A DNA stretch of 25,573 nt from a virus. The notes under the pieces were generated by a model, which saw nothing but the letters and a program-made list of their open reading frames with translations, was not told where the DNA came from and searched no databases. The position numbers and the translations under genes are program-made. This document shows, piece after piece, positions 293 to 25,536 of the stretch. The stretch lies in IMG/VR virus record IMGVR_UViG_3300046369_001362, positions 1-25,573 of that record. One strand, written 5' to 3'. Every line of letters starts with the position of its first letter. Positions within the stretch are counted from its first letter, which is position 1.

Positions 293-1264
293 TTGGCTAA
301 AAAAATTCCAAAGATTATAAAGGAGATTAGAAATAATCCTCCAACACCCGTTAATTATGCATATCAAAAGAATATATCATATTCCCAGATGTCTATATTT
401 AGAGGATGCCCCCATAGGTGGAAATTACAATATAAGGATAAAATTAAACGTTTTACTTCTTCAATTCATACTGTATTTGGGACGGCCATTCATGAAGTTA
501 TGCAACATTATTTAGATGTGGCATATGATAAATCATTTGCTGCAGCTGATAACTCAATTGATATGGAAGAATTTTTCCAAGAAAAATTTATAGGTGAATA
601 TCGAAATCAATATAATAAAAACAAAGACCAACATTTTTCCTCAGCCGAAGAAATGAGAGAATTTTTTGATGATGGGATGGGTATTTTAAATTGGTTTAAG
701 AAAAAAAGATCTAGGTACTTCTCTAAACGTGGTTGGCATTTAGTTGGTTGCGAAATACCATTAGTAATTGCGCCAAATAAAATGTATAACAACATATTAT
801 ACGCGGGTTTCTTAGATGTCGTCATGTACCATGAGGAAACAGAGACATTTAAAATAATCGATATTAAAACAAGCACCCGTGGGTGGAGGGATCAGGATAA
901 AAAAAATGAGGATAAACAATATCAATTACTTTTATACAAACAATATTTCTCAGAACAGTATGGGATACCTTTAGATAAAATTGAAATTGAATTTTTTATT
1001 GTTAAAAGAAAAGTAATGGATTGGGATGATGAAAAAATAATGTCACCTCATCAAGCATATAGGGTACAGCAATTTAGCCCACCAAGTGGTAAAATTAAAT
1101 TAGGAAGAGCTAAAAAAGCTATAAATAATTTTATAAATGAATGTTTTAATTCTAATGGAGACATAAAAGATATAGAATATCCAAAATCCCCAAGTAAATG
1201 GAATTGTAACTTTTGCCCCTATAAAGAAGATAAAGAAAATTGTGGAGAAGGTATAATCTACTAA
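293..1264 (+). CDS. PD-(D/E)XK nuclease, Cas4/RecB-like, possible Fe-S cluster
   Basis: A predicted DNA exonuclease or endonuclease of 323 residues. It starts with YSQMSIFRGCPHRW (30-43), typical of Cas4/RecB-family nucleases. The core follows in order: H67 in GTAIHEVM, E154, D175 in AGFLDVV, D190-x-K192 in IIDIKTS, and the QYQLLLY motif (209-215). C39 together with C305, C308 and C317 gives the one-plus-three cysteine spacing seen in Cas4 and AddB, where four cysteines hold a 4Fe-4S cluster; a cluster here is inferred. The start used is TTG at 293, because it directly follows the previous stop and keeps the residues before the first motif; no in-frame ATG occurs between the upstream in-frame stop (266) and this codon. 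Likely roles are phage recombination or replication, or host DNA breakdown. No Cas genes are nearby. Confidence 0.85.
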   Translation: MAKKIPKIIKEIRNNPPTPVNYAYQKNISYSQMSIFRGCPHRWKLQYKDKIKRFTSSIHTVFGTAIHEVMQHYLDVAYDKSFAAADNSIDMEEFFQEKFIGEYRNQYNKNKDQHFSSAEEMREFFDDGMGILNWFKKKRSRYFSKRGWHLVGCEIPLVIAPNKMYNNILYAGFLDVVMYHEETETFKIIDIKTSTRGWRDQDKKNEDKQYQLLLYKQYFSEQYGIPLDKIEIEFFIVKRKVMDWDDEKIMSPHQAYRVQQFSPPSGKIKLGRAKKAINNFINECFNSNGDIKDIEYPKSPSKWNCNFCPYKEDKENCGEGIIY

Positions 1265-1266
1265 TT

Positions 1267-1280
1267 TTCGTATATATGTA
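1267..1280 (+). promoter_or_regulatory. Weak promoter candidate upstream of the glycan operon
   Basis: The TTCGTATATATG sequence here resembles the TTCGTATATTTA core of the promoters further along. It falls in one of the few intergenic gaps (1265-1309). However, no TTTG sits 20 nt upstream of the TATA core as it does at the other sites, and the 3' half differs. If real, it would drive the RHH gene and the following 11 kb. Confidence 0.4.
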
Positions 1281-1309
1281 TACCTAAATAATGTTATAAA
1301 ATAAAGATT

Positions 1310-1498
1310 ATGAGCGCAAAAAAAGATATGACACTAACGAGTGTTAAAGTCAAAAGCGATTTATTCGAGAATTTTAAAATTGAATGTGTAAAACGTAAAT
1401 TTTCCTTCCAAAAACTTGCCGATCGGGCTTTGTTTTTGTATCTTACAGATGAAGATTTCCGTAAATCAATTAATAATCAAACTAAACTCGAACTATAA
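1310..1498 (+). CDS. Small ribbon-helix-helix (Arc/CopG-like) DNA-binding protein
   Basis: A 62-residue protein. The segment TSVKVKSDLFENFKIE (residues 10-25) looks like the beta strand and first helix of a ribbon-helix-helix fold, and KFSFQKLADRALFLYL (30-45) supplies the second helix. RHH proteins bind operator DNA as dimers through the paired N-terminal strands. This one is the first gene after a possible promoter and lies just upstream of the long glycan operon, so it may be an autoregulator of that operon or of the phage's own programme; this is inference. The ATG at 1310 follows an AT-rich leader (AAAGATT). The family call is by pattern and fairly secure; the target is unknown. Confidence 0.7.
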   Translation: MSAKKDMTLTSVKVKSDLFENFKIECVKRKFSFQKLADRALFLYLTDEDFRKSINNQTKLEL

Positions 1499-1510
1499 AT
1501 CCAAAAAACA

Positions 1511-2950
1511 ATGAATAAAAGTTTTGAACATCTTCCTAAGGACAAAAGGAAGAAAATATTATTAATTTGTGATGATATAAGAGTACATTCTGGGGTAGCA
1601 ACAGTTGCTAAAGAAATTGTAATTCATACTGCACACCATTTTAATTGGGTCCAAATAGCAGGAGCTATAAAACACCCTGATAAAGGGAAATTAATATCAC
1701 TTGATGAAAGTATTAATAAAGAGTCAAAAATTGATGATTCTTCAGTTAGTATTTATCCTGTTGATGGTTATGGTACCCCCGATTTATTAAGAAATTTAAT
1801 AAAAAAAGAATCACCTGATGCTATTATGTTAATTACTGATCCGAGATATTTTGGTTGGGTTTTTAATATGGAAAATGAAATTCGTAAAACAACCCCAATT
1901 ACCTATTTAAATATTTGGGATGATTACCCAGCACCCATGTATAATAAAGCATTTTATGAAGCTTGTGATTTGTTAATGGGTATTTCAAAGCAAACAGTTA
2001 ATATTAATAAAATAGTATTAGGAGAAGATAAGGGTAATAGGATTTTTAAATATATACCCCACGGTTTAAACCCAGATATTTATAAACCTATAAACCCTGA
2101 AGATAAAGAATTAAAAAAATTTAAAATAAATTTCTTTAAAAAAGATATTCCTGAATTTGTAGTATTCTTTAACTCTAGAAATATTAGGCGTAAACAAATC
2201 CCCGATACCATGTTAGCTTTTAGAGCTTTTCTAGATACACTTCCAAAAGAAAAAGCGGATAAGTGTAGAATGGTTTTACATACAGAAGCTGTTACTGACC
2301 ATGGGACTGATTTGTATAAGGTAGCAGAGTACTTCTTTACAGAAAGTTATCCTAAAGCAATCCAATTTTCCCATAAAAAGCTATCAACCACAGAATTAAA
2401 CTATTTATATAACATTGCTGATGTTCAAATATTACTTACTTCTAATGAGGGTTGGGGCTTAACCCTTACTGAAGCCATATTAGCAGGTACTCCTATTATT
2501 GCTAATACAACGGGTGGAATGCAAGATCAAATGAGATTTGTAGATGAAAATGGAAAATGGTTTACGCCAAGTGCTAATGTACCTTCTAACCATAGGGGTA
2601 CTTATAAAGAACATGGTGAATGGGCATTCCCAGTTTATCCAACATCAAGATCAATTCAAGGTTCTCCTCCAACCCCCTATATTTTTGATGATAGATGTAG
2701 ATGGGAAGATGCTACTGAACAACTAATTAAAGTTTACAACTTATCTAAAAAAGATAGAAATAAATTAGGATTAAAAGGTAGAGAATGGGCTATTAGTAAT
2801 GAAGCCGGTTTTACTTCTAAACATCAAGCAAATAGGGTAATAGAGGCATTTAATGAATTATTTACTAAATGGGAACCTAAAGAAAAATACCAGTTGGTTA
2901 ATGCTACTGAATATAAAGGAAAATTTTTAACACATAAAATACACTATTAA
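1511..2950 (+). CDS. GT-B glycosyltransferase, GT4-like
   Basis: A predicted retaining sugar transferase of 479 residues using a nucleotide-sugar donor. Near the N-terminus is DIRVHSGVATVAKEI (22-36), the glycine-containing acceptor-side loop of GT4 enzymes. The C-terminal Rossmann half carries VVFFNSRNIRRKQIPD, then a conserved EGWGLTLTEAILAGTP stretch (313-328). E313 and E321 stand where GT4 enzymes place their E-x7-E donor-site glutamates, and the following NTTGG loop is also typical. The length is slightly above the usual 350-420, with extra sequence after residue 340. It is the first transferase of the cassette. Its stop overlaps the next start as TAATG, implying translational coupling. 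Sugar specificity cannot be read from the sequence. Confidence 0.88.
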   Translation: MNKSFEHLPKDKRKKILLICDDIRVHSGVATVAKEIVIHTAHHFNWVQIAGAIKHPDKGKLISLDESINKESKIDDSSVSIYPVDGYGTPDLLRNLIKKESPDAIMLITDPRYFGWVFNMENEIRKTTPITYLNIWDDYPAPMYNKAFYEACDLLMGISKQTVNINKIVLGEDKGNRIFKYIPHGLNPDIYKPINPEDKELKKFKINFFKKDIPEFVVFFNSRNIRRKQIPDTMLAFRAFLDTLPKEKADKCRMVLHTEAVTDHGTDLYKVAEYFFTESYPKAIQFSHKKLSTTELNYLYNIADVQILLTSNEGWGLTLTEAILAGTPIIANTTGGMQDQMRFVDENGKWFTPSANVPSNHRGTYKEHGEWAFPVYPTSRSIQGSPPTPYIFDDRCRWEDATEQLIKVYNLSKKDRNKLGLKGREWAISNEAGFTSKHQANRVIEAFNELFTKWEPKEKYQLVNATEYKGKFLTHKIHY

Positions 2951-4251
2951 TGAGTAAACCAAGTTTTGTAATAAGTTGTCCCTATGATACCTATTCAGGT
3001 TATGGTGCCCGTTCCCGTGATATAGTTAAAGCTATTATTAATACCGGTCGATATGAAGTAAAACTTTTACCTCAAAGGTGGGGTAATACTTCTTGGAGTT
3101 TTTGTAATGACCATTCTGAATGGGAATATCTAAATAGTTATAGAATAGATAAAATTGAATCTCAACCAGATATTTGGATGCAAATCACAATACCAAATGA
3201 ATTTCAAGCTGTAGGGAAGTATAACATAGGATGTACTGCGGGTATTGAGGCTACAGTATGTAAACCTGAATGGATTGAGGGTTTAAATAGAATGGATAGT
3301 AATTGGGTTTCTTCTAATTTTGCTAAAGGAATGTTTGAAAGTTTAAATTATGAAAAAAGAAATAAACAAACAAAAGTCTTAGAAGGAAATATAAGAGTGG
3401 AAAAACCAATTGAAGTAATTTTTGAGGGTGCAAATTTAGATGTTTATAAACCTGTTTCAAAGGGTGATATAAAAGTAATTGATTTAGAAGATATTAAAGA
3501 ATCATTTTGTTTTTTAAATGTAGGACATTGGATACAAGGAGATTTTGGTCATGATCGAAAAAATTTAGCCTTATTAGTAAAATCTTTTTATGAAACATTT
3601 AAAGGACCCAATAAACCAAAACCAGCACTAATTTTAAAGGCATCTATGGGAGTAGCTTCTTATATAAGTAGAGATAATATTTTGGATAAGATTAAGTTTA
3701 TAAAAAATACAGTTAATTCAACTTCATTACCTAATATTTATTTACTTAATGGAGAATTTAATGATAGTGAAATGAATGAATTATATAATCACTCTAAGGT
3801 TAAGGCTATGGTAAGTTTAACTAAAGGTGAAGGTTTTGGAAGACCTCTATTAGAATTTAGTCTAACAGGAAAACCTATTATAGCCTCAGGGTGGTCAGGA
3901 CATTTAGATTTTTTAAAACCTAATTTTAGCACCCTGCTCCCAGGAGAATTAGAAAATGTACATAGTAGTGCTGCTAATAACTGGTTAATAAAAGAAGCTC
4001 AATGGTTTAGACCTAATGAAGCTGCTATTGGGAAGAATTTAAAAGATTGTTATAAAAAATATAAACAATTTGTATTAAGGTCAAAACAACAAAAACAATT
4101 TAGTAAATCTAATTTTAGTTATGATAAAATGGAAAAATTAGTTGATAAATTGTTAAGTGTATCTGTACCTGAATTTCCTAAACAAGTAGATTTTCAATTA
4201 CCTCAATTAGAATTACCTCAATTAGAATTACCTCAATTAAAAAAATTATAA
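2950..4251 (+). CDS. GT-B glycosyltransferase, GT4-like, with repeat tail
   Basis: A second predicted GT4-type transferase of 433 residues. The N-terminal YDTYSGYGARSRDIVKAII (12-30) matches the glycine-rich loop of the family, and GEGFGRPLLEFSLTGKPII (293-311) matches the donor-binding E-x7-E motif (E294, E302), followed by SGWSGHLDFL. It is a different protein from the upstream transferase rather than a recent duplicate, since the two share only family motifs. The C-terminus ends in a short pentapeptide repeat, QLELP, encoded by a 15-bp DNA repeat. That tail may be a flexible linker or docking peptide. The start overlaps the upstream stop by one base. A phage glycan-assembly role is inferred from context. 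Confidence 0.85.
   Translation: MSKPSFVISCPYDTYSGYGARSRDIVKAIINTGRYEVKLLPQRWGNTSWSFCNDHSEWEYLNSYRIDKIESQPDIWMQITIPNEFQAVGKYNIGCTAGIEATVCKPEWIEGLNRMDSNWVSSNFAKGMFESLNYEKRNKQTKVLEGNIRVEKPIEVIFEGANLDVYKPVSKGDIKVIDLEDIKESFCFLNVGHWIQGDFGHDRKNLALLVKSFYETFKGPNKPKPALILKASMGVASYISRDNILDKIKFIKNTVNSTSLPNIYLLNGEFNDSEMNELYNHSKVKAMVSLTKGEGFGRPLLEFSLTGKPIIASGWSGHLDFLKPNFSTLLPGELENVHSSAANNWLIKEAQWFRPNEAAIGKNLKDCYKKYKQFVLRSKQQKQFSKSNFSYDKMEKLVDKLLSVSVPEFPKQVDFQLPQLELPQLELPQLKKL
4201..4240 (+). repeat. 15-bp tandem repeat, 2.7 copies, in GT4 C-terminus
   Basis: The unit CCTCAATTAGAATTA occurs at 4201-4215 and 4216-4230, followed by a 10-base partial copy to 4240. It is in frame and encodes the pentapeptide LPQLE. 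Because 15 is a multiple of three, slippage would change tail length without breaking the frame. Confidence 0.9.
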
Positions 4252-4252
4252 T

Positions 4253-4690
4253 ATGAATTTTGATGAATTAAAAGAATGCACTAGGTGTGGGTCCGATGCC
4301 TGTTATAATCAAGAAGTAACAAAAGATATTAATATTGAATATTGTATTGGATGTGGATTTCAACATAATTCAGCTATGATTAGTGGAAGTGAATTTTTAA
4401 AGGAACAATTAGAAGTATTACCTGAATTATATAAAGAATTGATGGACGAAGAAGAAGAATCTGGGAAAATTTGGGTACCTACATCTGTAAATATTAATGA
4501 TAAGGGAATGATATTTGCTAGTGGGAATGGAAGAGATAACTGGTATTGGGCTGCTGTAAAAGTAGTCCCTTGTACTATTGATGAAAAAAAGAAACTAAAA
4601 AGTGATTATAAAGCGGATATGTCTACTTTAAGTCGTTACGATGAAGGTGATTTTATGGATGCCTTATCATACATTGAAGTTATACCATGA
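4253..4690 (+). CDS. Zinc-ribbon protein of unknown function
   Basis: 145 residues. The first 35 contain two CxxC knuckles, C9-x2-C12 and C31-x2-C34, spaced as in a zinc ribbon. The remainder is acidic, with a central WVPTSVNINDKGMIFASGNG segment and several aromatic residues (DNWYWAAVKVVP) that look like a small beta domain. I do not recognise the family. It sits inside the glycan operon directly after the second GT4 enzyme, and its last bases overlap the next start as ATGA, so it is translated with the cassette. It might be a partner or regulator of the cassette, or an unrelated phage gene caught within it. A second small CxxC/CxxC protein lies at 12462. Confidence 0.7.
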   Translation: MNFDELKECTRCGSDACYNQEVTKDINIEYCIGCGFQHNSAMISGSEFLKEQLEVLPELYKELMDEEEESGKIWVPTSVNINDKGMIFASGNGRDNWYWAAVKVVPCTIDEKKKLKSDYKADMSTLSRYDEGDFMDALSYIEVIP

Positions 4691-5127
4691 AATTAGGAGA
4701 TTTAACTGAAAAAATAATATCTGTATTTACTTTAGGTCAAGGTAAAAGGTTAGCTATGTATATAGCTAAATTAAGAGGTAAAGAAGATTGTGGTTGTAAC
4801 AGAAGAAAAGAAAAATTAAATAATTTAAATTTTAAATCTATGTCAATTTCTCAAAAACCCCTTAATTTAGATTGGTCATCTAAATGGAATAAAATTAGGG
4901 GTCAAGTATCTTGTGCTTGTGAATTTAATTATGCTATCTTACAAGTTAAAGATAAACAAAATAATTTAATACATGAAGAAAAAATTATGGCTTCCCCTTA
5001 TATGAGTGGTCAAATTAAAAATAAAGATATTTCCTTACCTTCATTTCTAACCCCTCATTCTTTTAGTTTAAAATTTCATAAAAAACACGAAAATACTTTT
5101 ATTAATCCTGTAAATATAGATTTATAA
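4687..5127 (+). CDS. DCGC-motif phage protein of unknown function
   Basis: 146 residues. The N-terminal 45 residues form a module: an amphipathic helix (LGDLTEKIISVFTLGQGKRL), a basic segment, then DCGCNRRKEKLNN (34-46) with C35 and C37. From memory, short phage and virus-associated proteins carry a similar G-D-E-K helix followed by DCGC-x-RKE-x-LN, but I know no function for them. The rest (about 50-146) has beta-strand-like stretches (SCACEFNYAILQVKD, SFSLKFHKK) and could be a small beta sandwich. ATGA couples it to the zinc-ribbon gene upstream and TAATG to the GT2 gene downstream. The position suggests a link to glycan transfer, but that is inference. Confidence 0.65.
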   Translation: MKLGDLTEKIISVFTLGQGKRLAMYIAKLRGKEDCGCNRRKEKLNNLNFKSMSISQKPLNLDWSSKWNKIRGQVSCACEFNYAILQVKDKQNNLIHEEKIMASPYMSGQIKNKDISLPSFLTPHSFSLKFHKKHENTFINPVNIDL

Positions 5128-5759
5128 TGAGAATAAGTTATGGAATAACTGTTTGTAATGAACATGAAGAACTTCAACATTTAATAGAATTTATAAGCCC
5201 CCTTATAGATAAAGAAGATGAAATAGTTATTGTTTATGATAATAATAGAGTAACTGGTGAAGTACTAGATGTAATAGACCACCACCAAGATAAAGTAAGA
5301 TCTTTTCCATTTGATTTTAAGCAAAACTTTTTAGAAAATAAAAATTATATGAACTCCGAATGTACAGGTGATTATATATTTCAAATAGATGCTGATGAAA
5401 TCCCAAATGAATATTTAGTTAAAAACCTAAAATTAATATTAGAATCTAATAAAGTTGATATTTTAATTGGCCCCAGAAAAAATATAGTTAAAAACTTAAC
5501 TCAAAGTCACATTCAACAGTGGAGATGGAATGTAAATGAAAAAGGTTGGGTTAATTGGCCAGACCAACAAAAAAGAATATACCGTAATGATCCTAGTATA
5601 GCTTGGAGAGGCCATCAAGTCCATGGAATGATTACAGGGTATAAAACATATGCAACTTTACCTTTAAATGAGGAATTTAGTATTACTCATAATAAAACTA
5701 TAGAAAAGCAAGAAGTACAAAATGAAAGATATCATAAAATTGAAACCAAACAATTATAA
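5127..5759 (+). CDS. Family 2-like glycosyltransferase (GT-A fold)
   Basis: 210 residues. The N-terminal ISYGITVCNEHEEL (3-16) is the first strand and helix of GT2 enzymes, EDEIVIVYDN (30-39) the second strand, and FQIDADEIPNEYL (85-97) holds the DxD motif (D88, A89, D90) that binds metal and nucleotide-sugar diphosphate. Downstream, W-rich segments (QWRWNVNEKGWVNW) and RIYRNDPSIAWRGHQVH resemble the acceptor region of LPS core GT2 enzymes of the WaaE/KdtX type. At 210 residues it is shorter than the common 250-300 but the catalytic half is complete. It shares 1-nt TAATG junctions with both neighbours. Likely a glycosyl transfer step of the same pathway; donor unknown. Confidence 0.85.
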   Translation: MRISYGITVCNEHEELQHLIEFISPLIDKEDEIVIVYDNNRVTGEVLDVIDHHQDKVRSFPFDFKQNFLENKNYMNSECTGDYIFQIDADEIPNEYLVKNLKLILESNKVDILIGPRKNIVKNLTQSHIQQWRWNVNEKGWVNWPDQQKRIYRNDPSIAWRGHQVHGMITGYKTYATLPLNEEFSITHNKTIEKQEVQNERYHKIETKQL

Positions 5760-7550: not shown

Positions 7551-7551
7551 T

Positions 7552-8061
7552 ATGGAAAAATTAAAGCAAGAATTAAGTAAATTAGGTATAAATTTAAATA
7601 ATTTAGATCATTGGTCTATGTCTATAGAAGGATTTAAATGGATATTAGATAACATACCAAAAGAAAGTAATATTTTAGAAATAGGAGCGGGAAAAGGTAC
7701 AATTGAATTAAACCGTTTTTATAATGTAACTACTATAGAAAACGATATAAATTGGGTTAACTCAGTAAAGGGGGTTAATTATATATACGCTCCTATAACT
7801 TCTGGGTGGTATAATGTAGAAATACTTAAAGAAAAATTACCTACGGATTATGATTTTTTAATTATAGATGGTCCCAAAGGATCCCCTAATAGGGTTCCCT
7901 TACTTAAAAATTTAGATTTATTTCATTTAGATTGTCCCATTCTTGTTGATGACGTACATGCTGAAGCTTCTTTACATATAGCTCAAGTTTTATCTAAAAA
8001 ATTAAATAAAAAATTAACAATACATAATGGTTGGCAGAAAAAATTTGCAACTATATTATAA
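7552..8061 (+). CDS. Class I SAM-dependent methyltransferase-like protein
   Basis: 169 residues from the ATG at 7552; a GTG at 7543 would add three residues but overlaps the upstream gene, so the ATG is preferred. ILEIGAGKGT (41-50) is the SAM-binding motif I, followed by TIEND (61-65), whose acidic residue would hold the ribose. The DFLIIDGPKGSPNRVPLL segment is motif IV-like and PILVDDVHAE follows a later strand. The length covers only the Rossmann core with no extra substrate domain. In a glycan operon the likely substrate is a sugar hydroxyl or the product glycan, as in O-methylation capping; this is inference. The bases after the stop (AAAACAATTTCAG) form a 12-nt gap to the next gene. 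Confidence 0.75.
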   Translation: MEKLKQELSKLGINLNNLDHWSMSIEGFKWILDNIPKESNILEIGAGKGTIELNRFYNVTTIENDINWVNSVKGVNYIYAPITSGWYNVEILKEKLPTDYDFLIIDGPKGSPNRVPLLKNLDLFHLDCPILVDDVHAEASLHIAQVLSKKLNKKLTIHNGWQKKFATIL

Positions 8062-8073
8062 AAACAATTTCAG

Positions 8074-8835
8074 ATGATAATAGATAATAAAGAAACTACT
8101 CAAAAGTTAATAGATTTTTTAAAGCAAGATAAACCCTTTACTTATTTAAGGTATGGAGATGGAGACTTTATTGCAATGTACCCGGAAAGTGTAGGTAAAA
8201 CTATAGGAGCAAATAATCAATCATATATCAGTCAAGATGTTCAAGATCAACTTATAAAAGGATATTCAATAAATGAAAAAAACTATATAATAGGTACTCT
8301 ACAAGATATTAGACATCCTCGAAGTATGAGAAATAATGTAGATTTTAATAAAATTAAAAATTTACCTATTCAACATCCTGATATTTTGTACAGTGCAATT
8401 GCATTACAAGAATCATTTTTAGATTATCCAGAACAATTTTTAGAATTTAGTCAATTGTTATCTAAAAAAAGAACTTTATATGTTAATCATTATATGGAAG
8501 ATGTATTAAAAAAGTTTTATGGAGATATAAAATTTTATGTACAAGTTCCTCAATTCAATGCTTGCAAGGGCTTTAAAGAAGTACTTAAAATAATTCAATC
8601 TATAAATAAAGAAGATTTTGATCAGATTATATTATCATGTGGGCAGTTATCTAGAGTATTAGGAAAAAGTTTATATGAGTTATACCCAAATAAAACTATA
8701 ATAGATGTGGGTTCACTATCGGATAAAATTATTTATGGTACAGAATCATTTCAAAAAATTAGAGTTAGGGGACATATTAGAAATAATGGACAATTAATTC
8801 AAGATAGATTAAAATATTTTATATCTAATTTATGA
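8074..8835 (+). CDS. GT-D fold glycosyltransferase-like protein (DUF1792-like)
   Basis: 253 residues. FTYLRYGDGDFIAMY (22-36) matches the R-x-G-DGE signature of GT-D enzymes such as the DUF1792 domain of streptococcal glycosyltransferases, where the D-x-E/D pair binds metal and UDP-sugar. Near the C-terminus, ILSCGQLSRVLGKSLYELYPN followed by TIIDVGSLSDKI fits the family's G-x-x-x-x-x-LA-x-x-L ... D-x-G pattern. The N-terminus starts directly with the nucleotide-binding region, as in stand-alone members. It overlaps the next gene by ATGA. It adds a third transferase fold to the cassette next to GT-B and GT-A enzymes. Sugar donor unknown, though characterised relatives use UDP-glucose. Confidence 0.7.
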   Translation: MIIDNKETTQKLIDFLKQDKPFTYLRYGDGDFIAMYPESVGKTIGANNQSYISQDVQDQLIKGYSINEKNYIIGTLQDIRHPRSMRNNVDFNKIKNLPIQHPDILYSAIALQESFLDYPEQFLEFSQLLSKKRTLYVNHYMEDVLKKFYGDIKFYVQVPQFNACKGFKEVLKIIQSINKEDFDQIILSCGQLSRVLGKSLYELYPNKTIIDVGSLSDKIIYGTESFQKIRVRGHIRNNGQLIQDRLKYFISNL

Positions 8836-9617
8836 AAATAATAGAAGAATATCATGAGTTTACTTGGGATATGATTAGAGCTTTACCTAAAGCTTATCAC
8901 ACCTACAATCAAGGGTTACCTGTAGAAGTCAAATGCAAACCCGGGTTATCCGAATTATATTACTTTGCTGATAAAGTAACCGAAATTAATAAATTTATTG
9001 CTTATAATGATTCTATTTCATATAATAACGAACCCCCGGAATATGCTTTGCAAAATTGGACCCCTCCCCCATTAAAAGAAAAATATAAGGGAAATGTACA
9101 ATTTTCTAAACCAACAGTTACTATTCAAAATAAATATGCTTTAGAATGGTTTACTGGGGTTTATAATTATTTTCCTTTAGAAGTTCTTGGAGAATTATTT
9201 GATTTCTTAAAAGAAAAATATGATATTATATATATTAGACCTAGGGGCAATACTAAAAATTATTACCAAGATGAAAATGAAATAAAAAGTTTTAATGATT
9301 ATGAATATATTTACAATAACCATCCTTACGTTTATACTATAGAACAATATTTACATCAATACCCTGATTCTAGCTATAATACTATTCAAATGATTTTACA
9401 ATCCACCTCAGATAAACACATAACAGTTTCGGGGGGGAATGCTTGTTTAAGTGCCTATTTTGGGGGAGATGTTTTTATATATGACAGCCCCGAAGGTAGA
9501 GGTGCAGGTAGGGGGGTATGGAAAGATGATTCTTGGTTATCTATGTTAGGTGGGGCTAATATATTTGGGTTTAATAATTATAAAGAATTAATCAATAAAG
9601 TAAAATTAAATTGGTAA
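8832..9617 (+). CDS. Unknown protein, possibly GT-B-like glycosyltransferase
   Basis: 261 residues, not recognised. It is rich in tyrosine, asparagine and proline, with FLKEKYDIIYIRPRGNTKNYY around residues 125-145 and a C-terminal segment SDKHITVSGGNACLSAYFGGDVFIYDSPEGRG. The second region resembles the end of GT-B transferases, where a strand, a Gly-Gly loop and a second strand bind the donor phosphate; GT9 enzymes have a comparable layout. The gene shows long G and C runs unusual for this AT-rich DNA, including seven G at 9431-9437 and six at 9511-9516. It is flanked by the GT-D and SDR genes in the same operon, so a sugar-transfer role is plausible but unproven. Confidence 0.6.
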   Translation: MKIIEEYHEFTWDMIRALPKAYHTYNQGLPVEVKCKPGLSELYYFADKVTEINKFIAYNDSISYNNEPPEYALQNWTPPPLKEKYKGNVQFSKPTVTIQNKYALEWFTGVYNYFPLEVLGELFDFLKEKYDIIYIRPRGNTKNYYQDENEIKSFNDYEYIYNNHPYVYTIEQYLHQYPDSSYNTIQMILQSTSDKHITVSGGNACLSAYFGGDVFIYDSPEGRGAGRGVWKDDSWLSMLGGANIFGFNNYKELINKVKLNW

Positions 9618-9620
9618 CAC

Positions 9621-10646
9621 ATGAATAGAACAATATTAATAACAGGTGTAGCTGGACTATTAGGTAGCCGTTTAGCTGATTGGATAATAGAAACCCAACC
9701 AGAAACTACAGTAATTGGAGTTGATGATTTAAGTGGTGGTTTTAAAGAAAATATCCATCCAAAAGTAAAATTTTGGCAAATGAATTTAATAGAACACCCT
9801 ATTGAAAATATATTTGAGGCACACAATATAGATTATGTATTTCATTTTGCAGCTTATGCTGCTGAAGGATTATCTCCATTTATCCGTACTTACAATTATG
9901 ATAATAACTTAAAAGCAACTGCTCGCCTAGTTAATGAATGTATTAAAAATGATGTTAAAAGGTTAGTATTTACGTCTACATTAGCGGTATATGGTCATGG
10001 CTATGGTGGAATATTTGATGAAAAACAACAACAGGCACCCATTGATCCTTATGGAGTTGCAAAGTATGCTTGTGAAATGGATATTCAAATTGCAGGTGAA
10101 CAACATGGATTAGATTGGTGTATTATTAGACCACATAATGTATATGGTATTAAACAAAATATATGGGATAAGTACAGAAATGTATTAGGCATTTGGATGT
10201 TCCAATATTTAAATGGGATGGATATAACTGTATTTGGTGATGGTGAACAAACAAGAGCATTCAGTTATATAGATGATAGTTTAGAACCTCTTTGGAATGC
10301 CGCTATTAAACCTGAAGCTAGTAAAGAAATAATTAACTTAGGGGGGGTTGAAGAAATTTCAATAAATAAAGCAGCCGAAACTTTAGTTGGTGTATTACAG
10401 AAAGAGGAGGGTATAGACGATTTTAACATCCCAATCCGTTATTTAGAAGCAAGACATGAAGTTAAACATTCAATACCCACTCATCAAAAATCAGTTGATA
10501 TATTAGGATTTGAACACAAAACTTCTTTAAAAGAGGGATTAACTGAGATGTGGAAATGGGCTAAACAACAACCTATGCGTGAAAGGTTTATATGGCCTAG
10601 TTATGAATTAGAAAAAGGAATTTATTCTTTTTGGAAAAGTAAATAA
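9621..10646 (+). CDS. NAD-dependent sugar epimerase/dehydratase (extended SDR)
   Basis: 341 residues, the normal length for extended short-chain dehydrogenases acting on nucleotide sugars, such as UDP-glucose 4-epimerase. The NAD(P)-binding TGVAGLLGS (8-16) keeps the GxxGxxG spacing. HFAAYAAEG (75-83), TSTLAVYG (118-125) with the active-site Ser/Thr, and Y144-G-V-A-K148 give the complete catalytic set. RPHNVYG (170-176) and GDGEQTRAFSYIDD match substrate-domain motifs. A seven-G run lies at 10341-10347. It is 3 nt downstream of the unknown protein and 3 nt upstream of the WecB-like gene. It likely interconverts UDP-sugars for the cassette; whether it acts as a 4-epimerase cannot be decided here. 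Confidence 0.9.
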   Translation: MNRTILITGVAGLLGSRLADWIIETQPETTVIGVDDLSGGFKENIHPKVKFWQMNLIEHPIENIFEAHNIDYVFHFAAYAAEGLSPFIRTYNYDNNLKATARLVNECIKNDVKRLVFTSTLAVYGHGYGGIFDEKQQQAPIDPYGVAKYACEMDIQIAGEQHGLDWCIIRPHNVYGIKQNIWDKYRNVLGIWMFQYLNGMDITVFGDGEQTRAFSYIDDSLEPLWNAAIKPEASKEIINLGGVEEISINKAAETLVGVLQKEEGIDDFNIPIRYLEARHEVKHSIPTHQKSVDILGFEHKTSLKEGLTEMWKWAKQQPMRERFIWPSYELEKGIYSFWKSK

Positions 10647-10649
10647 TAA

Positions 10650-11672
10650 ATGAAAGTTTTAATTTGTTTTAGCACTTACTCTGAATGGATAAAATTAAAA
10701 CCATTAATAAAATTAATGGATAATAAAGAATACAAACTCTTCTTTACAGGACAATATTCAGACTTGTTATCTAAGGTAAAAGTAGATTATACAATTAAAT
10801 TACCCAAACCTTTAGATAATAGTTTAAATTCTATAATGGCTGAATGTATGTTACAATTCCCAACATCCCAATTTGATACTGTGTTACTTCAAGGAAATAG
10901 TAGTGCTACATTAGGTTGTGCTTTAGCAGCTTATAATAAAGGTATTAGAACAATTCATTTAGAAGCAGGGTTAAGAACTCAGGATATAATAGGATCTTAC
11001 CCAGAAGAAGGATATAGGCAAATGATATCTCGAATAACTGAGTTAAATTTTTGCCCTACAACAACTTCATTAGGTCATCTTATTAGTGAAAGAGTAGAAG
11101 GGGATGGGTTTGTAATTGGTAATTCGATTTTAGATAATTTAGTAGAACATGAAAGTAAAAGAGAATATACAAACCAAGTATTAGTAACTCTCCATAAAAT
11201 AGAAAACCATAAATTATTAGATATTTGGTTTAAAAAAATAAATGAAATTGCCTTAAATAACCCTAATTTAGAATTTATTTTTCCTATACATCCTTTACCC
11301 ATAATTAAAAAATATAAATATTTACTTCCAAATATAAAAATTATAAACATCCTCCCCCATGATAAGTTTTTAAAAATATTATTAAAATGTAAATTAGTAA
11401 TTACTGATAGCGGGGGAGTAATGCAAGAAGCAAGTTATTTTAATAAAAAAGTAATAGTATGTAAAAAAACATCAGAATATCCTGAAGGTTTTTATAGTGG
11501 TCATTTACATTTATGTTCTACCCCTGAAAATTTACCTCCTTTGTTTAATAAACTAATAAAAGATTACAAAATACAAATTAGATGTCCATACGGTGAAGGA
11601 AGAACCTCAGAAAATATATATGAAATTATAAAACGTTCAGTCCCACATTTTAATAAACTAAATAATATATGA
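10650..11672 (+). CDS. wecB: UDP-N-acetylglucosamine 2-epimerase-like enzyme
   Basis: 340 residues, a little below the usual 360-380. WecB-family enzymes convert UDP-GlcNAc to UDP-ManNAc, and related members hydrolyse it. HLEAGLRTQD (103-112) is the hallmark motif, followed by YPEEGYRQMISRIT (117-130), where the family usually has PEE-x-NR. FVIGNSILDNL resembles the GN-T/S-x-x-D segment, and VITDSGGVMQEASYFNKKVI is the C-terminal UDP-binding motif (T-D-S-GG-x-x-E-x-x-x-x-x-K). The N-terminal QGNSSATLG replaces the usual HGDT-x-T and is unusual, so the exact reaction is uncertain. It overlaps the DUF616 gene by ATGA. It probably supplies an N-acetyl-hexosamine donor. Confidence 0.82.
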   Translation: MKVLICFSTYSEWIKLKPLIKLMDNKEYKLFFTGQYSDLLSKVKVDYTIKLPKPLDNSLNSIMAECMLQFPTSQFDTVLLQGNSSATLGCALAAYNKGIRTIHLEAGLRTQDIIGSYPEEGYRQMISRITELNFCPTTTSLGHLISERVEGDGFVIGNSILDNLVEHESKREYTNQVLVTLHKIENHKLLDIWFKKINEIALNNPNLEFIFPIHPLPIIKKYKYLLPNIKIINILPHDKFLKILLKCKLVITDSGGVMQEASYFNKKVIVCKKTSEYPEGFYSGHLHLCSTPENLPPLFNKLIKDYKIQIRCPYGEGRTSENIYEIIKRSVPHFNKLNNI

Positions 11673-12418
11673 AATTAATAGTATATACAGCATTATTTGC
11701 AGATGAAAATATTCCTTTAGAGGAAGTTGGAGAATTTTATCCCTTTACACATAAAAAAGAGGATGTTAAATATATAGCTTTTACTAATAGAATGGATTTA
11801 GTATCTAACTTTTGGGATGTTATGTATACCCCAATTGAAGAAGGATTATCTCCTAGAATGATGTCTAGAAAAGTTAAATGGAATCCAACTAAACATCTAT
11901 TATTAGATTTTACTCATACTATATGGTTAGACTCACAGTGCTATTTTAAAATTGAACCTAAAGCAATTGTAAATTATTTTTTACAAAGTGAATTCCATAC
12001 CGCAATCCACCACCATACAGATTTACAAAGTACATATTCAGAGGGAATGTTGCAATGTTACTATTACTGTCTGGATAAACCTTCAATTATTAACCCCCAA
12101 ATGGAAAAATATTTTAAAGAGGGACTACCCTATAAGTATGACCATTATGAAACAGGTATTTTAATTAGAAAAAACTGTGATGAATCAAACCAATTATCAG
12201 AAAATGTTTGGAACGAATTACAAAACTATAGCATTAGAGACCAATTAAGCACTCCTTATTGTGTATTTAAAGCTAGACAAAATGGGGATAAAGGTATAAA
12301 AACTATACCTGAATCTTTTACGGCTCATAAAGGAGGTTTACCTTTACCTAAATCTCAAATATTTTTTACTGTTCCAAAACCTACTAAATTACTCAAAGAA
12401 AATTTGGATGACAGATAA
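11669..12418 (+). CDS. DUF616 / TOD1-MUCI70-like glycosyltransferase domain protein
   Basis: 249 residues. KLIVYTALFADENIPLEE at the start, VKYIAFTNRMD in the middle of the first third, then RMMSRKVKWNPTKHLLLDFTHTIWLDSQCYFK follow the order seen in DUF616 proteins: a YTA-x-F-x-x-YD start, an FTD strand, an R-x-x-K-x-x-PH segment and a S-I-WID-x-x metal-binding-like strand. AIHHHTDLQSTYSEG corresponds to the family's H-x-x-R-D-x-x-x-E-x segment. The family is glycosyltransferase-like in plants and in bacterial capsule clusters. It is the last gene of the 11-kb glycan operon, and the next promoter's -33 box lies inside its final codons. Activity is inferred from family and context. Confidence 0.7.
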   Translation: MKLIVYTALFADENIPLEEVGEFYPFTHKKEDVKYIAFTNRMDLVSNFWDVMYTPIEEGLSPRMMSRKVKWNPTKHLLLDFTHTIWLDSQCYFKIEPKAIVNYFLQSEFHTAIHHHTDLQSTYSEGMLQCYYYCLDKPSIINPQMEKYFKEGLPYKYDHYETGILIRKNCDESNQLSENVWNELQNYSIRDQLSTPYCVFKARQNGDKGIKTIPESFTAHKGGLPLPKSQIFFTVPKPTKLLKENLDDR

Positions 12419-20987: not shown

Positions 20988-21107
20988 ATGTGCATGTCAG
21001 GAATACATTACGAAATTGAAGACGAATTTGAAGAGGATTTTATTGAAGTCGATCCTAAATTAATTTGTAAATACTCAGGACTTCTATCAATTTACGCTTA
21101 TGAATAA
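20988..21107 (+). CDS. Tiny acidic protein of unknown function
   Basis: 39 residues: MCMSGIHYEIEDEFEEDFIE, then VDPKLICKYSGLLSIYAYE. The first half is very acidic and the second mildly hydrophobic. The ATG follows the previous stop by one base, and the end overlaps the next start by 8 nt, which supports a real but unassigned gene. Confidence 0.5.
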   Translation: MCMSGIHYEIEDEFEEDFIEVDPKLICKYSGLLSIYAYE

Positions 21108-21279
21108 TATAAACAAATTTTTAAACACGTATTATCCAATTATTATAGCATTTATTTGTATGTGCTATTCAATCGGATTAGGATTATTTGGTTACACTGA
21201 AGAAGCTCAATACTCAGCTCATTGGGCAGGAACAATTTTACTATTTGCTATAGCAATCAGACAAAGACGAGGAAGATGA
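21100..21279 (+). CDS. Small membrane protein, two probable TM segments
   Basis: 59 residues. YYPIIIAFICMCYSIGLGLF (11-30) and HWAGTILLFAIAI (41-53) are hydrophobic, joined by a short polar loop (GYTEEAQYSA), and the protein ends in a basic QRRGR, which by the positive-inside rule suggests a cytoplasmic C-terminus. It overlaps both neighbours by a few bases. A holin-like role is possible by size and topology but unsupported. Confidence 0.6.
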   Translation: MNNINKFLNTYYPIIIAFICMCYSIGLGLFGYTEEAQYSAHWAGTILLFAIAIRQRRGR

Positions 21280-21461
21280 GTATAGCAATGTTTATAGTAG
21301 GGTTTTGTATATTTGCAGCCTATGTAGGTTTCTTAATGTGGAATATATTTTATAATCATAATAAGAATAGAGAAGAAAATTATCCTGGATACTATGCTAG
21401 ACATGGGTATCCCCATAATAGAGTTAGTAGAATGAAGGGTAAAAAAGAAGAAGTAGAATGA
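21276..21461 (+). CDS. Small membrane protein, one TM segment
   Basis: 61 residues from ATG 21276, which overlaps the previous stop as ATGA; the frame extends upstream but those codons lie in the preceding gene. AMFIVGFCIFAAYVGFLMW (4-22) is one transmembrane helix, followed by a polar, tyrosine-rich and basic tail (NREENYPGYYARHGYPHNRV, then SRMKGKKEEVE). It is coupled to the next gene by ATGA as well. Confidence 0.6.
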   Translation: MSIAMFIVGFCIFAAYVGFLMWNIFYNHNKNREENYPGYYARHGYPHNRVSRMKGKKEEVE

Positions 21462-21610
21462 GTAGAATAGAAGAATTAGTATATAGTGCCCATGAGTATG
21501 GTAAACGAGCCCAACTGTTTGATGAGGTTTCTAAGATAAAATTAGAATCTCCAGCAATGAAATTAGAAGAGGTTTATGATAAAGCATATCAAAATATAAT
21601 GAATACATAG
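21458..21610 (+). CDS. Small helical protein of unknown function
   Basis: 50 residues: MSRIEELVYSAHEYGKRAQL, then FDEVSKIKLESPAMKLEEVYDKAYQNIMNT. It appears to be two amphipathic helices. The ATG overlaps the upstream stop (ATGA) and the stop lies 2 nt before the methylglyoxal synthase ATG. No family recognised. Confidence 0.55.
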   Translation: MSRIEELVYSAHEYGKRAQLFDEVSKIKLESPAMKLEEVYDKAYQNIMNT

Positions 21611-21612
21611 AT

Positions 21613-21987
21613 ATGAAGTTTGCATTAATAGCACATGATAATAAGAAAGCAGATATGGTTGCTTTTGTTTCTAAACGTTTACCTTTCTTTAATAGAGAAG
21701 ATGTTAACATAGTTACAACAGGAACAACAGGTAAAAAAGTTAAACATGCTGGTATTAAAAAGGTAGAAACAGTTAATTCGGGACCATTAGGAGGTGATGC
21801 TGAGATAGCAGCAATGGTAGTAAGAGGGGAAATTACAGCAGTATTATTTATGAGGGATCCTTTAGATAAGCACCCCCATGATGTAGATATTAATATGTTA
21901 ATGAGATTATGTGATGTGCATGATATACCTTTAGCTACTAATTATAGAACAGCAAGTATATTAATTAAATGGTTTAAGAATAAATAG
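21613..21987 (+). CDS. mgsA: Methylglyoxal synthase
   Basis: 124 residues, close to the single-domain length of MgsA enzymes, which convert dihydroxyacetone phosphate to methylglyoxal and phosphate. LIAHDNKK (5-12) has H8; TTGTTGKK (35-42) is the phosphate-binding loop; SGPLGGDAEIAAMV (56-69) has D62; FMRDPLDKHPHDVDINML (79-96) holds D82, H89 and D92. By motif alignment these correspond to E. coli H19, D71, D91, H98 and D101, all conserved here. The GGDAEIAA block differs mildly from the common GGDQQIGA. Nothing nearby suggests a sugar-phosphate pathway, so a host-metabolism role (phosphate release, or a glycolytic bypass during infection) is inferred. It lies 2 nt after a small gene and 4 nt before a membrane gene. 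Confidence 0.93.
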   Translation: MKFALIAHDNKKADMVAFVSKRLPFFNREDVNIVTTGTTGKKVKHAGIKKVETVNSGPLGGDAEIAAMVVRGEITAVLFMRDPLDKHPHDVDINMLMRLCDVHDIPLATNYRTASILIKWFKNK

Positions 21988-21991
21988 GTAT

Positions 21992-22348
21992 ATGATTAAA
22001 ATGGATTATTTCTTATTAGGTATATTTTGGTTTACATTAGGCCATATAGCTGTGTTTTTTCAATTAAATGGTCAATTTAAATGGGAATGGTTTGCTAAAA
22101 ATGAATGGGCATTAGCTTTATTTGGATTAGTAATTTCATTTTTTTATATTTGGGGTACTAAATATACAGTATTATCATTTGACGGTTTATTATGGCCAGC
22201 TAGATTTGTAGGTTTTGGGATTGGGATGATTATATATGCTTTAGGTTTATGGGTTTTCTTTAAAGAAGGTATAACACCTAAAACGTTTATTAGTTTAGTT
22301 ATATGTGTAATTTTAATTTGTATACAAGTATTATGGAAAAACAAATAG
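21992..22348 (+). CDS. Four-helix membrane protein of unknown function
   Basis: 118 residues with four hydrophobic stretches at about 7-25, 40-57, 68-90 and 96-114, including LGIFWFTLGHIAVFF and ALALFGLVISFFYIWG. Size and layout resemble small four-helix transporters, but I see no diagnostic motif. An internal ATG three codons in (22001) is an alternative start. It follows the methylglyoxal synthase by 4 nt and overlaps the oxygenase-like gene by 16 nt. A transport or membrane-modifying job is possible; none is assigned. Confidence 0.65.
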   Translation: MIKMDYFLLGIFWFTLGHIAVFFQLNGQFKWEWFAKNEWALALFGLVISFFYIWGTKYTVLSFDGLLWPARFVGFGIGMIIYALGLWVFFKEGITPKTFISLVICVILICIQVLWKNK

Positions 22349-22980
22349 ATGTAAATTTTACATTAGTACAAGGGTTGTTTATTTCTACCCATACATTAGA
22401 TATAGATCATGATGCTATAGTTTCGGAAGTAATTGAAGCTAGGGAACATCCTGATAGACACCCTATGTCTAAAAAATTTAGAGATAGTTCTTTTGAAAGA
22501 GGTGAAATGCATCATACTTTTTATGAAGATACAAATATGTTTGACAAAACAGTACAAAAATTACTACCTCCTGTTCAAAATATAATAGATACTATATTTG
22601 GAGGTAATAGATTAATATTTGAGGAAGTATGGGGTCATATAATTCCCCCGGGTGACCAAACAATGGTTCACAACCACGGTAGTAATTTTAAAATCCCAGG
22701 ATTGTCTTTTGCTTATTATCCTCATGTGGTTCCAGATGGAGGTAATATTTATTTTTTATGTGAAGTCAATGGTAGTAAAACTACTTATGAGCATGAAATT
22801 AAAAAGGGGGATTTATTGTTTTTTTCACAAGAATTATGGCATTATACCCCTAGGAATGGGTCAAATCAAAATAGGGTAACTATTAGTGGGAATTTATTTG
22901 GTACCGCTGCTTTTTATCAAGAATTACAACAAGATAAGTATGCAACTAGTCCATATTGGAATTATGCTGGTAGACCTTAA
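22333..22980 (+). CDS. 2-oxoglutarate/Fe(II) oxygenase-like protein
   Basis: 215 residues from ATG 22333; a frame-open ATG at 22303 would add ten residues inside the upstream gene and is less likely. The core has VHNHGSNF (112-119) with H113 and H115, then GLSFAYYPHVVPDGGNIYFL (123-142), GDLLFFSQELWHYTPRNG (159-176) with H170, and NRVTISGNLFG with R181. This is the order of phage 2OG-Fe(II) dioxygenases (HxH/D ... H ... R), where the two histidines and an acidic or histidine residue hold iron and the arginine holds 2-oxoglutarate. Such enzymes hydroxylate proteins, nucleic acids or small molecules; the substrate here is unknown. The N-terminal 80 residues resemble prolyl-hydroxylase-like phage proteins only in general terms. 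Confidence 0.72.
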   Translation: MEKQIDVNFTLVQGLFISTHTLDIDHDAIVSEVIEAREHPDRHPMSKKFRDSSFERGEMHHTFYEDTNMFDKTVQKLLPPVQNIIDTIFGGNRLIFEEVWGHIIPPGDQTMVHNHGSNFKIPGLSFAYYPHVVPDGGNIYFLCEVNGSKTTYEHEIKKGDLLFFSQELWHYTPRNGSNQNRVTISGNLFGTAAFYQELQQDKYATSPYWNYAGRP

Positions 22981-23277: not shown

Positions 23278-23408
23278 TAAATCAAAATAAATTAGAAGAA
23301 ATTAGAGCATTGCACAAAATGATTATTGAACTTAAATCAAATCCAAGTGTTGAGAGTAAAAAAACAATACAACAACTTCAACAGAAGTTAGATGATCTAA
23401 AATTATGA
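23274..23408 (+). CDS. Tiny coiled-coil protein
   Basis: 44 residues: MINQNKLEEIRALHKMIIEL, then KSNPSVESKKTIQQLQQKLDDLKL. Two helices with leucine/isoleucine heptads (LEEIRALHKMIIEL and IQQLQQKLDDLKL) and a short linker predict a coiled-coil hairpin. It overlaps the upstream stop and the downstream Smr start, so it is translated with both. Function unknown. Confidence 0.5.
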   Translation: MINQNKLEEIRALHKMIIELKSNPSVESKKTIQQLQQKLDDLKL

Positions 23409-23638
23409 ATCATAAAATAGATTTACATGGGTTAACTCACAATGAAGCAGTAAGAAGGGTAGAAACTAAACTTATAGGAATATCACTTACTAATTATTAT
23501 CAAGTAGAAATTATAACAGGTAAATCTAAGTCAATGCAAGATAAAATAATTAATGAGGTATTAGGGCCCCTCAAATTTTCTCATTATATTCCCGCATATA
23601 ACACAGGAACAATAATTGTAACTCAAGATGGATTATAA
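23405..23638 (+). CDS. Smr-domain protein
   Basis: 77 residues, the length of a stand-alone Smr domain. DLHGLTHNEA (6-15) is the diagnostic DLHG motif with H8, and VEIITGKSKSMQDKI (34-48) matches the second T/HG-x-G/S motif. Smr domains of MutS2 and related proteins nick DNA or cleave RNA, and some only bind nucleic acid. The phage protein could act in recombination, repair or RNA turnover. It is flanked by overlaps with the coiled-coil gene and the sulfotransferase gene (11 nt). Confidence 0.88.
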   Translation: MNHKIDLHGLTHNEAVRRVETKLIGISLTNYYQVEIITGKSKSMQDKIINEVLGPLKFSHYIPAYNTGTIIVTQDGL

Positions 23639-24494
23639 TTTACCAAATTTTTTAATAATAGGAGTAATGAAAGGGGGAACTACCTCTTTAAATATTGCTT
23701 TGGCTCAAGGTAAAGATAGATTTACAGTTAAAGCTAATACTAAACAAGAAACATTTAATTCCAATCCAGATATAAACCCAAATATGTTTATTGGGGGGAT
23801 GGGTGCCTTAAATCATAAAGAATTAGATTTTTTCTCTAAAGATGGAAATTATAAACATGGGATTGATATATATAAAAGATTCTTTAATGTTAATAATTCA
23901 GAAACTTGTACCCCAAATCCTATATTAATAGGGGAATGTAGTCCTAGTTATTTTACTTTAGATGAGTACCCAGGGGATATTATAAATAGAATTCAAAGAT
24001 ATTTACCAGATATTAAAATTATTTTAAGTTTAAGAGACCCTATTGAAAGAGCCTATTCCCACTTTATTCATATGAATAGAAATAATTGGCATTATGATAA
24101 TCTTTATAAAAATAAAACTTTTAGAGAAATAGTAATGGGGGAATGGAAACACAAATCACCTAATTATGTAATAACCAGATCATTTTACTCTAAAAATTTA
24201 CTAAAATATAAATCAGCATTTGGTGATAACCTATTTGTGACTACACAAGAAAATCTTTTAAATGATCCAGTGTTTGAATTAAATAAAATATATGATTTTT
24301 TAGGTGTAAAAAAACCCCCATATGAGGATAAACAATTTAAAGCAAATAGAAACATTGATCATAATCCTGATTATTCTATAAAAAATATGGATAAGGAAAT
24401 AAAGGAATATTTAAGAGAATTATTTAGATCAGATGTAACTCAAACCGTAAAATTATTACCTCAAGTAGATTTTAGTTATTGGAATAAATATTAA
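23628..24494 (+). CDS. PAPS-dependent sulfotransferase
   Basis: 288 residues. FLIIGVMKGGTTSL (8-21) is the 5'-phosphosulfate-binding loop with K15 as the conserved lysine, and IILSLRDPIERAYSHF (131-146) is the 3'-phosphate-binding motif with its R-x-P-x-x-R-x-x-S core. The frame is complete, including the C-terminal KANRN segment. The enzyme would move sulfate from PAPS to a hydroxyl or amine, most often on a sugar. With the upstream glycan genes, sulfation of a phage-made or host glycan is a reasonable guess. No PAPS synthesis genes are visible, so donor supply would come from the host. It overlaps the Smr gene by 11 nt and ends 2 nt before the next. Confidence 0.9.
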   Translation: MDYNLPNFLIIGVMKGGTTSLNIALAQGKDRFTVKANTKQETFNSNPDINPNMFIGGMGALNHKELDFFSKDGNYKHGIDIYKRFFNVNNSETCTPNPILIGECSPSYFTLDEYPGDIINRIQRYLPDIKIILSLRDPIERAYSHFIHMNRNNWHYDNLYKNKTFREIVMGEWKHKSPNYVITRSFYSKNLLKYKSAFGDNLFVTTQENLLNDPVFELNKIYDFLGVKKPPYEDKQFKANRNIDHNPDYSIKNMDKEIKEYLRELFRSDVTQTVKLLPQVDFSYWNKY

Positions 24495-24496
24495 TT

Positions 24497-24706
24497 ATGA
24501 CTTTATACCCTAACATAGTTTATAATAATGGCGTAGCATATAAAATACTTACTATAATACCAATGCATAATTTTGCTGATAAAAATGGTAATATAAATAA
24601 ACAAGTATTAGGGATGTATGTACATGAAAAAGGTGGGGATCATGTATTACAAAGACAAGACAAATTTTTAATTTGTGAAACAATAGAAGAAGCAACAGTA
24701 GTATGA
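24497..24706 (+). CDS. Unknown phage protein, 69 residues
   Basis: 69 residues, beta-rich (NIVYNNGVAYKILTIIPMHN, then KQVLGMYVHEKGGDHVLQRQ and KFLICETIEEATVV). It has no motif I recognise. It sits between the sulfotransferase and the second epimerase, overlapping the latter as ATGA, so it belongs to that sugar-related cluster by position. A small beta-barrel or tail-fibre-like accessory fold is possible but unproven. Confidence 0.6.
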   Translation: MTLYPNIVYNNGVAYKILTIIPMHNFADKNGNINKQVLGMYVHEKGGDHVLQRQDKFLICETIEEATVV

Positions 24707-25536
24707 AACGTATATTAGTAACGGGGGCAGGTGGGTTTATAGGAAGTAATTTAATGAATTATTTAGCATTAGATAAAACAATATCAATACAAGGTATGGA
24801 TAATAATCCTCGCATTGATAATGAATATATGATTAATTTAAATATTAAGAATATAGATAAATTTGCATGGCAACCTAATATAATTTATCATTTAGCGGCA
24901 CAATCTAAAGTGCAACAATCATTTGATGACCCAAAACAAAACACAGAGGATAATGTAATGGGGACTTTAGCGGTACTAGAATATGCTAGAAAAAGAAAAT
25001 GCAAAGTAGTATATGCTGGCTCAGCTTCAAGGCATGTTGACCCAGCTTCATCCCCTTACGCTACTACAAAATATATGGGCGAAACATTATGTAAAATGTA
25101 TAGAAAATGTTTTGGTGTAGATGTTGAAATAGCTAGATTTTATAATGCATATGGACCAAATGAATACTTACACCCTACTGAAAGTAATGTAATTGGTATT
25201 TGGAGATATAATACCCAAAATAATATAAAGTGTAAAATAGTAGGTGATGGTGAACAAGAAAGAGACTTTATTCATGTTCAAGACATTGTTGAAGGGCTGG
25301 TTGCTATAGGGGATAGTATCTCAAGTCATGACGATGCCTGGGAATTAGGAACAGGCTCAACTTTAACTGTAAATAATTTAGCTACCATGTTTCATGAAAA
25401 ATTTAATATTAATTTTGATTGGGTTGAAGATCAAAAAGGTAATGTACGTAAATCAAAACTAATAAATACAGATGCTTATGAAAGGTTAGGTTGGAAACCT
25501 AAAAGAAGATTAGTAGATTATATAATGTCGCTATGA
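24703..25536 (+). CDS. Second NAD-dependent sugar epimerase/dehydratase (extended SDR)
   Basis: 277 residues, shorter than the 341-residue relative at 9621. TGAGGFIGS (7-15) is the GxxGxxG coenzyme loop, YHLAAQSKVQQSFDDP (62-77) the nucleotide-sugar strand, VVYAGSASRH (102-111) the Ser-containing active-site strand, and Y119-A-T-T-K123 the catalytic pair. RFYNAYGPNE and GDGEQERDFIHVQDIVEGL follow as usual. The protein is about 40 residues short of a typical UDP-glucose 4-epimerase, mainly in the second half, yet all catalytic positions are kept. It likely prepares a nucleotide sugar for a glycan, possibly one sulfated by its neighbour. The next gene starts by ATGA overlap and leaves the window. 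Confidence 0.88.
   Translation: MKRILVTGAGGFIGSNLMNYLALDKTISIQGMDNNPRIDNEYMINLNIKNIDKFAWQPNIIYHLAAQSKVQQSFDDPKQNTEDNVMGTLAVLEYARKRKCKVVYAGSASRHVDPASSPYATTKYMGETLCKMYRKCFGVDVEIARFYNAYGPNEYLHPTESNVIGIWRYNTQNNIKCKIVGDGEQERDFIHVQDIVEGLVAIGDSISSHDDAWELGTGSTLTVNNLATMFHEKFNINFDWVEDQKGNVRKSKLINTDAYERLGWKPKRRLVDYIMSL

Follow-up and report, generated by a model that had tools for sequence, protein, structure and literature searches.

The mgsA locus and its product

The window, by which is meant the whole stretch of DNA that was analysed, is a virus record of 25,573 bases. On its plus strand it carries mgsA, the gene for a methylglyoxal synthase (MgsA), and the features that are relevant to this gene are the following:

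293..5759, + strand: block collinear with Flavobacterium phage immuto, 38-55% amino acid identity
21100..21279, + strand: small predicted membrane ORF, 59 aa, with homologues in 10 viral loci and no PHROG match
21222..21461, + strand: small predicted membrane ORF, 79 aa, start codon uncertain, with homologues in 10 viral loci and no PHROG match
21458..21610, + strand: small ORF, 50 aa, directly upstream of mgsA (2-nt gap), with homologues in 9 of about 80 viral loci within 7 kb of mgsA and no PHROG match
21613..21987, + strand: mgsA, methylglyoxal synthase (MgsA), 124 aa, ATG start and TAG stop, assigned from sequence, family models and predicted structure
21992..22348, + strand: predicted membrane ORF, 118 aa, directly downstream of mgsA (4-nt gap), with homologues in 7 viral loci

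The protein is matched over its full length by the NCBIfam model NF003559 (methylglyoxal synthase), with 147.4 bits against a cut-off of 84; it also scores 139.9 bits with TIGR00160, narrowly below the cut-off of 146.9, and 51.4 bits with Pfam MGS. In a sequence search of the PDB, solved MgsA structures were retrieved with E values down to 1e-33 and were, at the threshold used, its sole relatives. Residues were numbered on E. coli MgsA, whose sequence was checked against 1b93. Specifically, the alignment places the catalytic H19, D71, D91, H98 and D101 of the E. coli enzyme on H8, D62, D82, H89 and D92 of the window protein, so that all five positions are present. K23, T45, T47, T48, S65, G66 and R107 (E. 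coli numbering) are also retained, and both sets of residues are invariant among 44 distinct viral relatives.

The AlphaFold model of the protein (pLDDT 95.8) was matched by Foldseek to MgsA 1wo8 with a TM score of 0.94-0.95 and a deviation of 0.8 Å. More generally, the model lies within 0.8-0.9 Å of the Thermus and Bacillus enzymes and about 1.0 Å of that of E. coli, with about 47% identity to its structural MgsA matches, while the regulatory, non-catalytic MGS domain of carbamoyl phosphate synthetase (CPS) is approached only to about 3 Å. By sequence and structural model, the identity of the predicted product as a methylglyoxal synthase is confirmed and chance is excluded; the modelled fold is, in addition, distinct from that of regulatory MGS-like domains. 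The preliminary description of this DNA, which had assigned the ORF to MgsA with all five catalytic positions in place, is thus borne out by alignment, family model and structure. Regulatory MGS-like domains do exist, as the CPS matches illustrate, and a moonlighting or regulatory MGS-fold protein that does not need catalysis could be imagined; such a reading is extremely unlikely, however, as the catalytic residues are fully invariant in the 44 viral proteins, dN/dS is low (see below) and the structural match is at the level of MgsA rather than of CPS.

With bacterial MgsA (EC 4.2.3.3; solved from E. coli, B. subtilis, Thermus and Borrelia) the window protein has in common the fold, the core length, the catalytic and phosphate-binding residues and the curated family NF003559. 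It differs in being phage-borne, and the viral copies form a clade of their own inside Bacteroidota MgsA, usually with the motif HDVDI where most bacterial relatives have HEPDI. The short C-terminus of the protein might be taken for a loss of allosteric control by inorganic phosphate (Pi), but this interpretation was rejected because the same stretch is missing in the bacterial relatives, which are equally short.

Phage nature of the window and its relatives

The block at 293-5759 comprises a PD-(D/E)XK nuclease, a small ORF, two glycosyltransferases, a hypothetical gene and a GT2 glycosyltransferase that ends at 5759. This nuclease-glycosyltransferase order is collinear with that of Flavobacterium phage vB_FspM_immuto (Immutovirus, 160 kb), which also provides the nearest relative of the window exonuclease gene (43%). 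From gene order and sequence, the collinear block assigns the window to the immuto-like phages. Immuto has a T4-type capsid related to that of the mgsA-bearing relatives of the window, although it is absent among the INPHARED records with an mgsA match. The lack of Shine-Dalgarno-like motifs upstream of the window genes (0 of 49) and a GC content of 29% fit a Bacteroidota host. Moreover, the GC3 of mgsA (0.18) is like that of its neighbors (0.155 +/- 0.034), which argues against recent acquisition from a host with another base composition.

The window, 25.6 kb long, is a fragment in which structural hallmark genes are missing; the relatives closest to it are likewise fragmentary and lack the T4-type capsid gene gp23. 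The contigs that carry viral relatives of mgsA reach 311 kb, and gp23 is present in 15 of 27 related records, with a T4 portal gene in 4 further ones. The capsids of the mgsA-bearing relatives fall into several divergent T4-type lineages, one of which is nearest to Microcystis phage Mel-JY01 (58%) and immuto (55%), and a second to an uncultured phage followed by the Prevotella LAK phages. The carriers of mgsA are large phages of the T4 type, with probable Bacteroidota hosts. That the ORF is instead a host fragment mis-binned as virus, a proposal as extremely unlikely as that of a non-catalytic MGS-fold protein, is contradicted by the virus record itself, by the collinearity with immuto and by gp23 and portal genes on the contigs of relatives. 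Host contamination of the window is ruled out on the same grounds, in agreement with the phage-encoded nature first ascribed to the gene.

Genomic neighborhood of mgsA

In the window, mgsA belongs to a closely packed series of very small ORFs (21100-22348), several of which have membrane segments predicted from the sequence. Even the closest relatives have these ORFs in a shuffled order, and in other lineages the neighbors are quite different, so that a conserved mgsA operon was rejected. The lack of conserved neighbors would indicate that mgsA travels and acts on its own, and it is probably a stand-alone gene. The gene had initially been placed in a unit of mini membrane proteins and not with sugar genes; the first half of this statement holds for the immediate neighbors, while the second does not extend to the window as a whole. 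Indeed, a glycan and nucleotide-sugar locus, with several glycosyltransferases, a UDP-GlcNAc 2-epimerase, a nucleotide-sugar dehydrogenase and epimerases, is located at 1511-12418, and a further epimerase at 24703-25536. The region near mgsA also encodes a 2OG-Fe(II) oxygenase (phrog_81; 22303-22980), a stand-alone Smr domain protein of 77 aa (23405-23638) and a sulfotransferase (23628-24494).

In several phage lineages (our loci L021, L032, L047, L056 and L074) mgsA is adjoined by a nucleotidyltransferase of the glycerol-3-phosphate/heptose-phosphate type. Together with the nucleotide-sugar epimerases, this would suggest that MgsA feeds a phage sugar or glycerol-phosphate pathway. In particular, 4 of 16 independent records have a cytidylyltransferase-like gene no more than 2.5 kb from mgsA, where 1.2 would be expected (P about 0.02, in a test chosen after the data had been seen). 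The adjacent nucleotidyltransferase, however, stays below the curated cut-offs for both glycerol-3-phosphate cytidylyltransferase and RfaE, and in the window, as in most lineages, mgsA has no such gene nearby. Feeding of such a pathway is consequently considered very unlikely, and the proximity of the two genes would be a lead only.

Distribution, phylogeny and selection

A relative of MgsA is encoded by at least 326 IMG/VR contigs according to the sequence patterns used, while another count gave 160. In the phylogenetic tree, the viral proteins form one clade (support 99/98) that is nested inside Bacteroidota MgsA. Both the phylogeny and the survey of viral metagenomes had been proposed in the preliminary description, which stated that no common phage role of MgsA was known; in the light of this distribution, and of the earlier listings of auxiliary metabolic genes described below, that statement needs correction. 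The dN/dS ratio is about 0.03-0.16 for the window copy against its relatives, with a median of 0.13 over 291 viral pairs, values that are rough because synonymous sites are near saturation (dS 0.85-2.0) and yet lie far below 1. These ratios argue that mgsA is under purifying selection and is retained for its function. Taken together, the number of contigs, the single clade nested in Bacteroidota and the low dN/dS characterise mgsA as an old, functional auxiliary metabolic gene, which by sequence comparison is host-derived from Bacteroidota and is distributed across several divergent T4-type lineages.

Six rows from bacterial genomes fall inside the viral clade. One of them (L085; NZWA01000013.1, Flavobacteriales MAG NAT55) is evidently a phage contig binned in a MAG, with ten ORFs common to viral mgsA loci. 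The copy of Planktosalinus lacus (L082) has, judged by eye, a chromosomal neighborhood of the lpxD/lpxA/efp/sucD kind, and three Flavobacteriaceae MAGs (L083, L084 and L086) have no general gene content around mgsA in common with the viral loci. These four copies, which are 67-71% identical to that of the window, may possibly reflect gene flow from phage to host or an old donor. Related Bacteroidota genomes already have an mgsA of their own, and many Flavobacterium species (L106-L131) have two mgsA genes in tandem, with about 200 bases between them; the identity of each to the phage copy is 38-53%.

Previous records of viral mgsA

In the Lake Baikal virome, mgsA was reported on a 120-kb virus scaffold, of the virotype Caulobacter phage Cr30, that accounted for up to 8.8% of the reads in one sample (PMC8066274). 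In the part of that report considered here, the gene is listed under propanoate metabolism with its assigned function, and active site, phylogeny, selection and host are not checked. A brine-pool virome likewise gives mgsA as a viral auxiliary metabolic gene, with no functional study (PMC11252502). No functional study of a viral mgsA was found in the open-access literature, and neither PHROGs nor the BFVD structure library holds a viral MgsA. A tblastn search of INPHARED with MgsA matched 22 records. Three of them were examined (OR848172.1, MT835608.1 and MT835478.1; loci L262, L263 and L264) and were discarded as phage MgsA, being bacterial DNA on unverified shotgun scaffolds. Their mgsA genes lie, respectively, in the orders dapB-mgsA-cca-birA, penicillin-binding protein-ParA-mgsA-hisS and ftsW/rodA-mgsA-dacA (D-Ala-D-Ala carboxypeptidase), by which the three records are recognised as mislabelled host DNA in a phage collection. 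In other words, the enzyme is well known, and phage mgsA is a real, widespread and uncharacterised metabolic gene.

Possible roles of MgsA during infection

By analogy with the known enzyme, phage MgsA would, as a hexamer, convert dihydroxyacetone phosphate (DHAP) into methylglyoxal and Pi. Two companion functions were searched for in the phages, namely glyoxalase and phosphate uptake. A glyoxalase that could be paired with MgsA was found in 0 of 28 related records (positive control in 12 of 14) and, as the phages bring none, the disposal of methylglyoxal would fall to the host. Glyoxalase I above a strict cut-off was found in 0 of 12 Bacteroidota genomes, a cut-off that also fails most control genomes. 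The phosphate-binding protein gene PstS (PF12849) was found in 0 of 31 related records (positive control in 13 of 14), while PhoH is present in 14 of 28. PhoH is a common, general phage gene, so that its presence in half of the records is unremarkable.

These results bear on two further possibilities. The first is that the chief purpose of an active enzyme is phosphate scavenging in phosphate-limited waters, a benefit also advanced, for marine infections, in the preliminary description. The reaction releases Pi, low Pi relieves the inhibition of host MgsA (PMC11850910), and the PhoH genes would be on this side of the argument, general phage genes though they are. Nonetheless, with PstS absent from the 31 related records, nothing points to a broader phosphate programme; the idea is left with no genomic support and appears quite unlikely. 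The second possibility is toxicity, that is, an active enzyme whose methylglyoxal modifies nucleic acids and proteins of the host and so aids takeover or excludes competing phages, effects that the preliminary description had raised as well. Methylglyoxal is a strong toxic electrophile (PMC11850910), and the results of both glyoxalase searches, with the reservation made for the bacterial cut-off, would be in keeping with such a function. On the other hand, phage DNA and proteins would be damaged equally, mgsA shows no linkage to genes for host degradation or exclusion, and the source Bacteroidota live with mgsA of their own. A role in toxicity is therefore regarded as unlikely.

The explanation that we favor, and to which we would give about an even chance, is that mgsA stands alone as an auxiliary metabolic gene in T4-type phages, probably of Bacteroidota, and that an active MgsA provides a phage-controlled outlet at the triose-phosphate node. 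If the enzyme works inside infected cells, as we infer, this outlet for DHAP would prevent the build-up of sugar phosphates. That is, as infection disturbs the balance between glycolysis and biosynthesis, DHAP would be drawn off and its phosphate would re-enter the Pi/ATP pool required for nucleotide synthesis, with the detoxification of methylglyoxal left to the host. As related Bacteroidota genomes already possess mgsA, the benefit for the phage must come from dosage or deregulation. The conversion of DHAP into methylglyoxal releases phosphate, and E. coli MgsA is inhibited by Pi at 0.3-0.5 mM (PMC11850910); B. subtilis MgsA is controlled (inhibited) by Crh, according to the title of a reference in PMC11852113. 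A copy of its own would accordingly make sense for the phage even in a host with mgsA, because the host enzyme is probably held back by controls of this kind, and the phage enzyme could act when that of the host does not.

Implications for phage biology

Known phage metabolic genes mostly concern photosynthesis, the pentose phosphate pathway, nucleotides and phosphate uptake, and Bacteroidota are major polysaccharide degraders in water. A conserved and selected MgsA would mean that many Bacteroidota phages gain from opening the methylglyoxal bypass, a route with a toxic product. Since MgsA is just one small enzyme and simple to assay, its role is directly testable, and the viral clade can serve as a marker in metatranscriptomes. 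A broader and more tentative proposal is that Bacteroidota T4-type phages widely use their own MgsA as a metabolic valve or weapon, with infection deliberately steered through methylglyoxal so as to free the Pi of triose phosphates and to stress the host or rival phages. If true, this would represent the first phage programme at the methylglyoxal branch of glycolysis.
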